Source: an uncultured Acidobacteriia bacterium (GTDB lineage: Bacteria; Acidobacteriota; Terriglobia; Bryobacterales; Bryobacteraceae). Taken from it: a DNA stretch of 64,000 nt. Position numbers and translations under genes: made by a program. Shown here piece after piece: positions 56,989-62,407 of this stretch (positions are counted from its first letter, which is position 1; the number at the start of each line of letters is the position of its first letter). Where the stretch lies: NCBI GenBank assembly GCA_903907865.1, contig CAIVPR010000097.1, forward strand, positions 62,001 to 126,000, in the 5' to 3' direction. Under the pieces are notes generated by a model, which had not been told where the DNA came from, did not search any database, and worked only from the letters and a program-made list of their open reading frames with translations.

Positions 56989-59018
56989 TTGGACTCCTCA
57001 GGCGTTGTCACAACCCACGGGATCGCCCGCCCGGCGATGTTCTCGCGCTGGGTCCCGTTTACCAAGTTCGCATTCACCACCAAATCATACGTCGCCGGAG
57101 CGGTCGACTTCGTCGTCGTCACCCGGAACGTCCCCGTCGCGGCACCCTTCGAGGTCGGTTTCATGTCGATCACCCGCAAGTCCCGCGCCCCCGCCGCATT
57201 CACGCTGATCGTGGCGGGCATCGGGAGCGACTTGTCCTTCGCGGAAATGGTCCATTCGAAGTCGAACGCGTCGCCTTCCGACATCCTCGTGCGCCCGATC
57301 TGCTTCACCGAAATCGTCGCGACCGGCTCCGGTGCCAACGCCGCCGGCATCGCCATCTCCAGCCAGGGTGCCGTTATAGACTTCTGCCGATCCGTAGAAG
57401 CCGCGTCCGGGATCCCGGTTCCTGCGGCCACGTCAATCACCGCTCCCGACCCGCTTGCTTCCCGATGCGCCTTCGAGCCGTCCGACAGCACAACATCCGC
57501 AGCCACCACCAGTTCCTTCTCCGCTGGTTCCGCGTCGGCAGCCGCCGTCAGCGTGATCACCCCGTTGCGGCTGGTCAACCGCGCACCGGTCTCATCCACC
57601 GTCTCCGGCGCGATGAATCCGCCCTCGGCGGTCCAACCCTTCGGCAGATTCTCGAGGTGGGCCCGGATCGCCCCGTCATACCCGCGCCGGTCTGCGCTGA
57701 CGGCAACCTGCACGGTACCGCCCCGGGGAACGTTGAGAAACGCCGGAGACGCAGCGATCGAAAAATCTTCCGCCACTTTGCGGATCGACATCCGATACCC
57801 GAACTCAGGCCCCCCGCGACCCGCCAAATCCTCCACAGCCACCGTGATCTCGTGGACTCCCTCCGGCACCTTGAAATTCAACGAAGGGTCGCCCAGTGTG
57901 CGCCCCACCAACTGCGCCATCGTGGCATCGAGCGGCGGTGCCGTGTCGCCCGCCACGCCCAACTTCTCGCCCTTCGGACCATACGCCGTCACCAGCGCGT
58001 CCAACCTCGAAACGCCCGTTTCACGGGACTGCACCCGCACCAACACGGACTCGCCCGGCGTCACCGCGACCTTCTGTTTTACGATGACACCCGGCTTCTC
58101 GATCCGTCCGTCGACCATGTCGTCAGCCGCCGACAGAGAAATCCGGAACGGCAGCACCGGCGATCCCGGCATCGAAACCGTGGCAGATCTCCCCGTCGAA
58201 GGCAGCGTCACCCGTGATTTGACAACCGGAGTCGCCGCGCCCTTGGCCCCGAACTCGAAATCCACCGTCTGTCCCGGGCGTCCGCCCAGCGGATACACCC
58301 ACTCTGGATATGCAAACGCGCCGATTCGCAGCCGGTAAAAATTCTGCTCCTGCTTGCTGAGCCGCGCGTCGCGGACCATGACGAAGTAGTTCCCCTCGCG
58401 CGGGAACGTATAGTCGACGCGCGAATCGACGCCGATTCCGGGCGCATCCTCGTTCCGCGCCAGCAATTCGCCCTGCGCGTCGTAGAGTTCAAGCACCGGG
58501 TCGATGGCGGACCCGCAGCGCCGCGCTTCGACCTCGAACACCTTCCGCTCCCCGGCCTTGGCCGCGACGCGGTAGAAGTCCCGGTCGGCCCCGACCAGCG
58601 TGCCGTTGATGACCACCGGCGTGGACTTGACGGGAGTTGCGGTGGCGATGGAATTGTTGGGGTGGTCGGCGCTTTCGCCCTCGTCGATTTCGGGGAAGTT
58701 GCCGACCGTGAAAAACAAGATATTCGAAATGCCGTTCTGGTTGCGGACACGGATCGGGTAAATGCCCGGTGCGGCGTCGGCCTTCAGTTCCACTAGGTAC
58801 GGTAGACCCTTCATGGTCCCAGTCATCGCCGTGAATACTGCGGGCAGGGAAGTGGACAACTGCGACCCCTCCAGCAATTCCCGACCACTCAACGTCAACG
58901 TGAACGTCTTCCCCTGCTGCGCCCCTCGGGGACTGATTTCCGTCAGGGTCGGTGCCGCGTCAAGTGCCGCTGCGGCGGCTAGGAATGCCAACGACAGGTA
59001 ATGCAATCTGGTTCTCAT
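56985..59018 (-). CDS. Exported protein with pre-peptidase C-terminal-like domains
   Basis: The 677-residue product has a signal peptide (LSLAFLAAAAALDAAPTLTEISP), an IPT/TIG-like first domain (GAQQGKTFTLTLSGRELLEGS), and a PPC-like domain (DRDFYRVAAKAGERKVFEVEARRCGSAIDPVLELYDAQGELLARNEDAPGIGVDSRVDYTFPREGNYFVMVRDA). It continues with several beta-sandwich regions. Probably a cell-surface binding protein acting with its DUF1549 partner. It overlaps its neighbours on both sides by 4 bases. Confidence 0.82.
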   Translation of the reverse strand: MRTRLHYLSLAFLAAAAALDAAPTLTEISPRGAQQGKTFTLTLSGRELLEGSQLSTSLPAVFTAMTGTMKGLPYLVELKADAAPGIYPIRVRNQNGISNILFFTVGNFPEIDEGESADHPNNSIATATPVKSTPVVINGTLVGADRDFYRVAAKAGERKVFEVEARRCGSAIDPVLELYDAQGELLARNEDAPGIGVDSRVDYTFPREGNYFVMVRDARLSKQEQNFYRLRIGAFAYPEWVYPLGGRPGQTVDFEFGAKGAATPVVKSRVTLPSTGRSATVSMPGSPVLPFRISLSAADDMVDGRIEKPGVIVKQKVAVTPGESVLVRVQSRETGVSRLDALVTAYGPKGEKLGVAGDTAPPLDATMAQLVGRTLGDPSLNFKVPEGVHEITVAVEDLAGRGGPEFGYRMSIRKVAEDFSIAASPAFLNVPRGGTVQVAVSADRRGYDGAIRAHLENLPKGWTAEGGFIAPETVDETGARLTSRNGVITLTAAADAEPAEKELVVAADVVLSDGSKAHREASGSGAVIDVAAGTGIPDAASTDRQKSITAPWLEMAMPAALAPEPVATISVKQIGRTRMSEGDAFDFEWTISAKDKSLPMPATISVNAAGARDLRVIDMKPTSKGAATGTFRVTTTKSTAPATYDLVVNANLVNGTQRENIAGRAIPWVVTTPEESK

Positions 59019-60370
59019 TGTCGACTCACCATCAAAGGCACCGGCACAAAATCCTTCACCAGCTCGCAGCTCTCTGCCTTGTAAATCCGCACATGCCCGT
59101 CAAACCCCGCCGCCGCCAACCGATCCCCCGCCGGGCTAAACGCCACCGCATAAACCCCCGCCTTATGCCCCGAGCAAGCCGCTATCAGCCCGCCCGTCTC
59201 GGCATCATAGACATTCACAACCGACGCCAACCCGGCCACGGCAATCCGCTCTTTGGCCCCGCCCGACCAAGCCAGCGCCGCAATCACCCCGTCCTGCCGC
59301 GGCAATTTCCTCACCAGCGTCGTGTCGTCGGCAATCTTCATCACCTTCGGCCGGTCCATCATATAGATATACGGGATCCGCTCCTCGCCCCCGATCACTA
59401 CCAGATCCTTGCCCGGCTTCCGCGCGATGGCCGACAGCTCCCCGCGCAGCAGGTTCACGTTCTCCAGAAATCCTCCGCTCGCCACGTCCGACAGCTTCGC
59501 CGCCCGGTCCTTCCCGACCGAGACGACCCGCTTCCCGTCCACCCCGAATACCGTCGCCAGTACCCAGTTCTCATGGTTGCCGATCTTCTGCAGTTCCTTG
59601 CCTGAAGCCGCGTCCACAATCCGCACCGAATTGTCCGTCGCTCCCACCGCAATCGTCTTTCCGTCCGCCGTCACCGACCCGCCGAAAACCGTATCGTTCG
59701 TCAGCGTGATCGACTTCCGCAACGTCCCCGCGGGCATGTCCCAAACTTGGATTTCGCCGAACCGCGCCGGGGATCCGCCCGCCGCGACCAGCGTTTTCCC
59801 GTCCGCCGTGTACGCCAACCCGTTCAGCCGCTCCGACTGCCCCACCAGCCGCCGCACCAACCCGCTCCCATCGGCCTTGTGGAGCAGGATCTCGCGGTAC
59901 CCGGCTACCGCCAGCGTCTGTCCGTCGGGTGAAAACGCGAGAGCCCCGATCACCGGCGGCTGGCTATAGACAGGCGGATGGTCGGCGGAAATGGTGTCGG
60001 CAGCCTCTGCGGGCGTGTCGTCCTTCGCCCCGCTGGCAATCCACGCCGCAATCGACTCGATCTGCTCCTTCGGCAGCGCCGCCGCGCCCATCGGCATCGT
60101 CGGCTGCAACTCGCCCTTGACATATTTCAGGACCACGCTGTCCGCCGCCTTGCCCGCCACAAACGCCGCGCCCCGCCGACCGCCTCTTGCGAAATCGGCA
60201 AACGTGGTGACGTCGAGCCCCGAACTTTTCAAGCTCGGCTGGTGGCAACCCTGACAATTGCGCTGGAGGATGGGCCGGACATCCCGGTAGTAGCTAGGAG
60301 CTTCGGCAGCGGTAAGAAGGGAGGCGAAGGCAATCGTGGACAGGATCGCAGCCCCAAGTAAACGATACAT
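59015..60370 (-). CDS. Cytochrome-type domain plus WD40 repeat exported protein
   Basis: First gene of the minus-strand operon. The 451-residue product has a signal peptide, a c-type haem motif (YYRDVRPILQRNCQGCHQP, CxxCH) with a distal Met region (LQPTMPMGAAALP), and from about residue 135 a WD40-like propeller (IGALAFSPDGQTLAVAGY, LNGLAYTADGKTLVAAGG, GGSVTADGKTIAVGATDNSVRIVDAASGKEL, VYAVAFSPAGDRLAAAGFDGHVRIYKAESCEL). Periplasmic electron-transfer or scaffold role is inferred. Confidence 0.87.
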   Translation of the reverse strand: MYRLLGAAILSTIAFASLLTAAEAPSYYRDVRPILQRNCQGCHQPSLKSSGLDVTTFADFARGGRRGAAFVAGKAADSVVLKYVKGELQPTMPMGAAALPKEQIESIAAWIASGAKDDTPAEAADTISADHPPVYSQPPVIGALAFSPDGQTLAVAGYREILLHKADGSGLVRRLVGQSERLNGLAYTADGKTLVAAGGSPARFGEIQVWDMPAGTLRKSITLTNDTVFGGSVTADGKTIAVGATDNSVRIVDAASGKELQKIGNHENWVLATVFGVDGKRVVSVGKDRAAKLSDVASGGFLENVNLLRGELSAIARKPGKDLVVIGGEERIPYIYMMDRPKVMKIADDTTLVRKLPRQDGVIAALAWSGGAKERIAVAGLASVVNVYDAETGGLIAACSGHKAGVYAVAFSPAGDRLAAAGFDGHVRIYKAESCELVKDFVPVPLMVSRQ

Positions 60371-60438: not shown

Positions 60439-60747
60439 CTATGCGGCTGTCGGCAAGGGCCGTGCCCGTTCGACCCGTTCGCGTTCCTTCGGCGTATTGA
60501 GCACATTCCAAAGGTCCGTCCGCCGCTGCACATTGAGCCAGAAATCCGGGCTGTTGCCCAATACCCGTGCGAGGATCAATGCCGTCGCCGCAGTCGCGGT
60601 CCGGCGATCATTGCACAACTCGTTCACATGCTTCCGCGGCACCCCCATTGCTTCCGCCAACTGGGCCTGCGTCAGGCCCATCGGGGACAGGAATTCCTCC
60701 GTCAGCATCTCGCCGACTCCCACGGGCTTCCTCTGCGTCATCAACAT
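60439..60747 (-). CDS. higA: HigA-family antitoxin
   Basis: The 102-residue protein carries an XRE-type HTH (GLTQAQLAEAMGVPRKHVNELCNDRRTATAATALILARVLGNSPDFWLNVQRRTDLW), the HigA pattern. It neutralises the toxin encoded 9 bp upstream and is likely to repress the operon. The upstream toxin/downstream antitoxin order is normal for higBA. Confidence 0.88.
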   Translation of the reverse strand: MLMTQRKPVGVGEMLTEEFLSPMGLTQAQLAEAMGVPRKHVNELCNDRRTATAATALILARVLGNSPDFWLNVQRRTDLWNVLNTPKERERVERARPLPTAA

Positions 60748-60756
60748 CGCTTATCC

Positions 60757-61065
60757 CTAATCCTCCTTCAAGCGGTATGAGTGGTCATCCAAGTAGACTT
60801 GCGATGCTTCGCCTGTCCCGGCACTCCATCGAAAGACCAGTCTCCAACGCAGGTTGATCCGGATCGAATGCCAGCCTTCGAGATTGCCAGTCAGCTTCTC
60901 AAAGTGGTTGCTGGGCGGCACACGCAAGTCCTGATCTGTCATCGCATCGTCCACAAGTTGCAACTTGCGAAACAGCCGGACCTCCAAATCGGCGGGAATT
61001 CGCTTAGCCGCGCGGTCATGGACGAAGAATTCCCGGAGCCACTCATCTCGAAAGCTGTCAATCAC
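60757..61065 (-). CDS. higB: HigB-type RelE-like mRNA interferase toxin
   Basis: The 102-residue product (SFRDEWLREFFVHDRAAKRIPADLEVRLFRKLQLVDDA ... LRVPPSNHFEKLTGNLEGWHSIRINLRWRLVFRW ... QVYLDDHSYR) matches HigB/RelE, including the RWRLVFRW strand with catalytic basic residues. Ribosome-dependent mRNA cleavage is the known family activity. Divergent from the DUF3179 gene, with 109 bp between them. Confidence 0.87.
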   Translation of the reverse strand: MIDSFRDEWLREFFVHDRAAKRIPADLEVRLFRKLQLVDDAMTDQDLRVPPSNHFEKLTGNLEGWHSIRINLRWRLVFRWSAGTGEASQVYLDDHSYRLKED

Positions 61066-61174: not shown

Positions 61175-62407
61175 ATGGACCGACGAATCCGCCTAGCCGT
61201 CCTCCTCGCCGCCTGCTTCCTCGCATCGCTATTCCTCCTCGCCTATCCGATCTACGTCATCCGGCCATTCCGGCATCAAGGCGCGGCGGAGCTCGGCCTC
61301 GCCCTCGAAATCCTGCGGTTCCGGCCCGTCGCGATGATCGTTGCCGCCGCTTTGGCGGCCATCGGGGCCATCCAGTACTGGCGAACGGCCCAAAGTCGCT
61401 GGGCCCGGGGTCTGGCCGTGACCGCCATCGTATCCGTCCTCGCCTTCGCCGGCCTTTCGCGTGTCAACGTCTACGAGCAGATGTTCCACCCCGTCGACCG
61501 GCCCGAATTCGTAGCAACCGACGCCACCAAACTCGCCGAAACCGAAAAGGTCCTCGCGATTCGCATCGGCGACGAGTCGCGCGCCTACCCCATCCGCAGC
61601 ATTTCCTACCACCACATCGTCAACGACCGCCTCGGCGGCGTTCCCATCGCGGCCACCTATTGAACGCTCTGTCACACCGGTCTGGTGTGGGGGCGCGAGG
61701 TGGACGGGGTCACTCTGACGTTCCATCTCGCGGGTATCAACAATCAGAACTTCCTCATGCGGGACGAGGAAACCGGCACGTATTGGCAGCAGATCAGCGG
61801 GCGCGCGATCTCGGGCCCCCTTGCCGGCAAGACCCTTCGCTTGATCCACTCCGACGAACTAACCTTCGCTCTGTGGAAGACCGAGCTTCCAACGTCGGGA
61901 GCGCACGGCAGCATTATGAAAGACGTCGCGGCTTTCGTCCCCGAATACTCGCCCAACGACTGGGACATCAAGATGAAGAAAACCCGCACCGTCATCACCC
62001 ACGCCCAACCCGGACTGGCAGCGCGTGATCTGATGCTAGGCCTGCACGCGGGCGGGGCCGCGCGGGCGTTTCCCTACGAGACGGTCCGGCGCGAGACGCT
62101 TATCCTCGACCAAGTAGGGTCGGAGCCCGTGCTGCTGGTGCTCGGCCCGGACAAAGAATCCGTGCGGGCGTTTTCTAGAACTCTGCCGGGCGGCCGCGGA
62201 GTGGCAGATTTCTACCGTGTCACGGATGAGGACGGCCTGATGGTCGACAGTATCGCCGCCAGCCACTGGGATTTCCGGGGCTGCGCAAGTGGCGGACCGA
62301 TGAAGGGAGTCTGTCTTGCCCCGATCGAAGCAATCAAGGACTACTGGTTTGACTGGCGCGAGTACAACCCGGAAACGACGGTTTTCGGAATGCCTGGCCG
62401 TCGCTGA
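61175..62407 (+). CDS. DUF3179 membrane protein with in-frame UGA, candidate selenoprotein
   Basis: 410-residue frame with one internal TGA at 61661-61663 (codon 163). N-terminal membrane segments ([54 protein letters not shown]) precede a DUF3179 domain: [75 protein letters not shown], and a C-terminal [26 protein letters not shown]. The family consensus at the UGA is TYCPLC, so UGA replaces exactly the first Cys of a CxxC motif. A hairpin with loop GGTCT starts 9 bases after the UGA. It is either a selenoprotein or a Cys-to-stop pseudogene. The frame is otherwise intact. Confidence 0.75.
61661..61690 (+). promoter_or_regulatory. UGA codon plus SECIS-like hairpin
   Basis: UGA at 61661-61663; stem CACACC (61673-61678) / GGTGTG (61684-61689), loop GGTCT (61679-61683), with a possible extra U-G pair at 61672/61690. 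The loop begins 15 bases after the UGA. Bacterial SECIS elements are hairpins just after UGA with G at the start of the apical loop, and E. coli fdhF has the same GGUCU loop 18 bases after its UGA. Confidence 0.5.

Follow-up and report, generated by a model that had tools for sequence, protein, structure and literature searches.

A gene on the forward strand of the window (the whole 64,000-nucleotide stretch of DNA analyzed here), at 61175..62407, encodes a DUF3179 protein whose in-frame UGA at codon 163 (61661..61663) is, on the comparisons below, very probably decoded as selenocysteine. The first-pass annotation had proposed this decoding, with selenocysteine completing a U-x-x-C motif, and the proposal is upheld by selenocysteine (Sec) machinery in the genome, alternation of TGA with Cys codons among homologs, frozen synonymous sites, compensatory changes in the hairpin after the UGA, and purifying selection downstream of it.

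The frame contains two stops—the TGA at codon 163 and the terminal TGA at 62405–62407—and is otherwise open, giving a product of 410 residues including the predicted U163; homologs match over almost all of that length. Codon 163 stands where DUF3179 proteins have the first Cys of their TYCxLC motif, and the motif translates here as U163-T-L-C166, with Cys166 (TGT, 61670..61672) as the partner of U163. The read-through protein matches PF11376 (DUF3179) over residues 107–401 at 8.2e-57, with a score of 193.3 bits against a gathering cut-off of 27. Rereading the frame and this match bear out the original description of a single in-frame TGA in an intact 410-codon DUF3179 frame, and homologs with TGC at the same codon bear out its placement at the first motif Cys. 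NCBIfam and PHROGs families gave no match at E 0.001. Among solved structures, no useful sequence relative was found (phmmer best E 0.2; profile search none up to E 10), and the plasmid protein search returned one distant DUF3179 record, from Deinococcus deserti (25.4%).

Codon 163 was compared across two overlapping collections. The first comprised 201 genomes of relatives, the source genome included, with a DUF3179 match in 82; 66 loci were loaded (L019–L084, weaker matches left out), and 64 of these align over codon 163. Homologs of at least 41% identity carry TGA in 37 of 41 cases and TGC in the other four (L049, L050, L053, L058). The second collection, the named loci, was limited to the best 80 of the 586 relatives confirmed and carries TGA in 72 of 80 and TGC in 8, proportions that are no natural frequency because inclusion depended on similarity to the query. 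Of the two peptide search patterns, one has Cys at the Sec position, a bias against finding TGA. By title and taxonomy tags, these best 80 of 586 relatives are mostly Acidobacteriota; they also include three Nannocystis (Myxococcota), all with TGA, and one Rhodanobacteraceae MAG, with TGC. Every non-TGA row of the close clade (12/12) has TGC, never a Trp or Arg codon. The Cys forms belong to the same family, with C-x-x-C replacing U-x-x-C.

The source genome (7.5 Mb, 98.27% complete) holds selA (494.6 bits), selB (363.7 bits, above cut-off), selD (363.7 bits), and a tRNA-Sec (69.4 bits) to which ARAGORN assigns the anticodon TCA. The tRNA-Sec model matched this genome ten times; the five matches checked with ARAGORN comprise one tRNA-Sec, three tRNA-Ser, and one tRNA-Leu. 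The selD gene itself (L101, G000:C38:1803-2726) carries an in-frame TGA, so SelD of this genome is probably a selenoprotein too.

Among the 37 genomes with a TGA form, selB is matched at 1e-90 or better in 33 and tRNA-Sec at 1e-11 or better in 32, with at least one of the two in 36; G024 (80% complete) has the TGA form and neither match at those levels. The tRNA-Sec search across relatives used stricter filters, under which weak matches can be lost. Sec machinery is common in this group—selB scores above cut-off in 170 of the 201 genomes—and co-occurrence by itself is therefore weak evidence. In the TGC genomes G192 and G007, tRNA-Sec is matched at 1.6e-7 and 4.0e-7 at best and selB at 1.1e-55 and 9.9e-57, weak enough that the Sec system is probably absent from both. 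Two other TGC genomes carry both components: G017 (tRNA-Sec 1.4e-13, selB 1.3e-103) and G032, which also has a TGA copy of DUF3179.

The putative SECIS apical hairpin, CACACC-GGTCT-GGTGTG, begins 9 nt after the UGA at 61673..61689 of the forward strand (CACACC 61673–61678, loop GGTCT 61679–61683, GGTGTG 61684–61689); it lies where it had first been described and it folds. The Escherichia coli fdhF SECIS likewise places a GGUCU loop at its apex a short way past the UGA, and the present loop resembles the one read by E. coli SelB; the stem sequence differs from that of fdhF. Taken alone, the hairpin is weak evidence of a SECIS. Its folding energy has a z-score of −0.88, with 33 of 200 shuffles folding at least as well. 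Counting both strands, the window has 1444 TGA trinucleotides, of which 43 are followed by some 6-bp hairpin and 7, the present one counted, by a 6-bp hairpin whose loop starts with GG. No Rfam family reaches its gathering score anywhere in the window. It is the comparative data—homolog codons, pairing, and synonymous sites—that raise the hairpin far above chance.

Synonymous sites across the hairpin are nearly frozen. In the 37 TGA genes, mean major-codon frequency is 0.95 over the 8 conserved degenerate columns of codons 164–171 vs. 0.61 over 76 columns elsewhere, and none of 100000 random draws reached 0.95; codons 168–171 are identical in 37/37. Over both collections, all six pairs are kept (G-U allowed) in 105 of 109 TGA rows and the GGTCT loop in 106 of 109, rows that overlap between collections, comprise 80 distinct TGA 54-mers, and are not independent. 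The pairing exceptions keep 5/6 pairs (L112, L173, L180) or 4/6 (L152), and the loop is changed in L173, L180, and L182. The 12 Cys rows, of which L058 and L154 are identical in sequence, retain all pairs in 4 cases and the loop in none.

The closing pair, both bases of which are third codon positions, changes in concert: C-G becomes G-C in L137 and L140, and T-A in L168 and L174. A test on 35 distinct rows finds 97.6% of cells paired, a level matched by 1 of 500 shuffles, and three cells with substitutions on both sides, which 0 of 500 shuffles equal; slid versions of the hairpin reach at most 55.7% pairing. This covariation is confined to one pair, and at least one pair changed on both sides also turns up in 134 of 500 shuffles. 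The UGA might instead be read by another route, such as a near-cognate tRNA (e.g., Trp), or be bypassed by a start at GTG 61685, where an ORF does begin, with no selenocysteine in either case. Against this stand the alternative codon, which in all 12 non-TGA close rows is TGC and never Trp or Arg, the loss of the GGTCT loop where the codon is TGC, and the full Sec kit of the genome; we regard such a route as highly improbable.

Constraint on the protein continues past the UGA. By a Nei–Gojobori script, dN/dS downstream (codons 173–405) is 0.121 for the window vs. L020 and 0.097 for the window vs. L103, and upstream (codons 105–162) it is 0.163 and 0.139; the comparison with L103 is near saturation (dS 1.79). 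Other pairs give downstream values of 0.105 (L054/L055) and 0.222 (the Nannocystis loci L168/L174). Further stops occur in six TGA rows: in five they fall at residues 405–409, the natural end, and in L140 one falls at residue 117, which may reflect an error of assembly. With downstream dN/dS near 0.1 the gene is no pseudogene, and reading the locus as dead is untenable. A recent Cys-to-stop mutation leaving a dead gene or a truncated protein has in its favor that TGA is one base from TGC/TGT and that TGC occurs in close homologs and named loci, but its probability is negligible against the retention of TGA across Acidobacteriota and Nannocystis, the coding constraint downstream, and the nearly frozen synonymous sites of the hairpin.

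The first-pass annotation did not recall DUF3179 among described selenoprotein families; in this it was mistaken. A table in the review PMC9312934 lists DUF3179 (pfam11376, UxxC/T) as a predicted selenoprotein family and cites Zhang and Gladyshev 2007 (Olavius algarvensis symbiont), and a table in PMC13188914, a review with no word starting "Acido," lists it as well. At the level of the table entries, the tabulated selenoprotein and ours share the Pfam family (PF11376) and the UxxC motif, into which U163-T-L-C166 fits. A 2006 census (PMC1794560) gives Acidobacteria three selenoprotein families with four proteins, and a 2025 predictor paper (PMC12013277) gives one Acidobacteriota genome three known and zero new selenoprotein genes. 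Among the open-license papers listed by our searches, none dealt with DUF3179 selenoproteins in Acidobacteriota, with the DUF3179 fold, or with DUF3179 together with Rieske proteins. The gene is thus part of a large, new Acidobacteriota clade of an already listed selenoprotein family; what is new is this clade with its nearly frozen SECIS, likely Sec/Cys switches, and a predicted fold. Where a gene caller takes every UGA for a stop, genes of this kind would be truncated or divided, and many genomes may thus carry a wrong annotation for a selenoprotein that is common in Acidobacteriota.

Beyond the close clade, the family varies at the same motif. The second DUF3179 copy of the source genome (L002, G000:C90) has Ser-x-x-Ser replacing U-x-x-C (read by eye), and the paralogs L060 and L061 (35%) carry Ser at the two motif positions; judged by their motifs, all three are paralogs that lost the redox pair. 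TGA also stands at the motif Cys in distant subfamilies of the same class (L062–L068, L077, L078, L080–L082); single-sequence folds place their hairpins at a different spacing, with loops of other sequence (such as AGTTT and AGTCT, by eye). Separate subfamilies with Sec and differently placed hairpins suggest that Sec may have entered DUF3179 more than once. A quick unrooted tree of 102 rows, with residue 163 masked and rows shorter than 200 residues left out (L067, L068, L078, L081, and L082 among them), requires 5 changes between Sec and Cys. Ten Cys rows (two identical) form one branch within the Sec rows and L138 forms another, which makes two or more Sec-to-Cys switches likely.

AlphaFold models the whole protein (pLDDT 95.0, pTM 0.91) as long N-terminal helices followed by two beta domains; for domain 1 modeled by itself the values are 93.6 and 0.88. 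The helices (residues 3–28, 37–71, and 75–94; 61181..61456) form a presumed membrane anchor, a location and topology read from the sequence. Domain 1 (residues 132–231; 61568..61867) carries U163-x-x-C166 and has a predicted Rieske-like fold. Domain 2 (residues about 293–402; 62051..62380) is its duplicate (hhalign probability 99.7%, E 4e-26), and the same alignment shows the U/CxxC pair to be absent from it. Other subfamilies have what we read as signal-peptide-like N-termini; these, with the charges around the helices, suggest that the domains face the periplasm.

In VIA comparisons, 48 of 50 listed rows for the whole model and 50 of 50 for domain 1 are, by title or known fold, Rieske-fold proteins. 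The best matches reach Z 9.7 (rmsd 3.1, 97 residues) and Z 8.6 (rmsd 2.6, 94 residues), respectively, only slightly higher than the Z of 7 to 8 that the tool gives as typical for models lacking a clear match. Foldseek gave no match at E 0.001 or better for the whole model or domain 1, and its lists also hold unrelated proteins. The likeness to Rieske and NirD-type Rieske-like proteins lies in the predicted fold of both domains and does not imply common ancestry; the DUF3179 sequence differs from theirs in having no cluster ligands, and a profile comparison with three Rieske proteins detected nothing (probability 0.8%). Placement of U163 at the site of the first Rieske Cys ligand was considered and set aside, since the aligned end-points of the domain 1 comparison speak against it. 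They put U163 about 31 residues into domain 1 vs. about 43 residues for the first ligand of a Rieske domain, so U163 probably sits in the turn that joins strands three and four.

A true Rieske iron–sulfur protein with Sec as a cluster ligand would suit the domain 1 comparison, in which every listed row appears to be Rieske-fold. The translation, however, lacks the C-x-H ... C-x-x-H [2Fe-2S] ligand motif, the aligned end-points place U163 short of the ligand position, and the profile comparison was empty; we think this reading very unlikely. A selenol/thiol pair on a Rieske-like fold is not known as a redox fold among selenoproteins. We tentatively entertain, at somewhat less than even odds, a DUF3179 family with a duplicated, cluster-free Rieske-like fold bearing the selenol/thiol pair on a beta-turn, which Sec perhaps entered more than once.

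For the present gene, SelB with Sec-tRNA(UCA) would recognize the GGUCU-loop hairpin just after the UGA, and the ribosome, as the comparisons indicate, would insert selenocysteine at 163 and continue to 62405. The N-terminal helical anchor would hold the product in the inner membrane, its pair of duplicated Rieske-like domains probably exposed to the periplasm. There, Sec163 and Cys166 of domain 1 could act as a selenol/thiol pair cycling through a selenenyl-sulfide and reducing or oxidizing an extracytoplasmic substrate; domain 2, its pair lost, would probably be structural or serve binding. The product is thus most likely a membrane-anchored, outward-facing selenol/thiol redox protein, and a redox role for it is moderately favored. 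A Sec so strictly kept would point to a catalytic residue, and the model would offer the first structural frame for DUF3179; conserved Sec use in Acidobacteriota and the predicted fold together give new leads to DUF3179 function.

The gene neighborhood was compared through mechanically called ORFs around the best 80 of 586 relatives. No neighbor within 600 bp is common to more than 6 of these 80 loci: The widest neighbor ORF cluster covers 18 loci, with 4 of its members lying within 600 bp; the best adjacent cluster covers 6 loci, and the window is absent from the clusters listed. Just upstream of the DUF3179 gene, on the reverse strand at 60439–61065, lie a HigB-like toxin (PF05015) and a helix-turn-helix protein, likely a toxin–antitoxin pair. 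A PSCyt1-domain protein with WD40 repeats occupies 59015–60370 on the same strand, which then carries further large ORFs.
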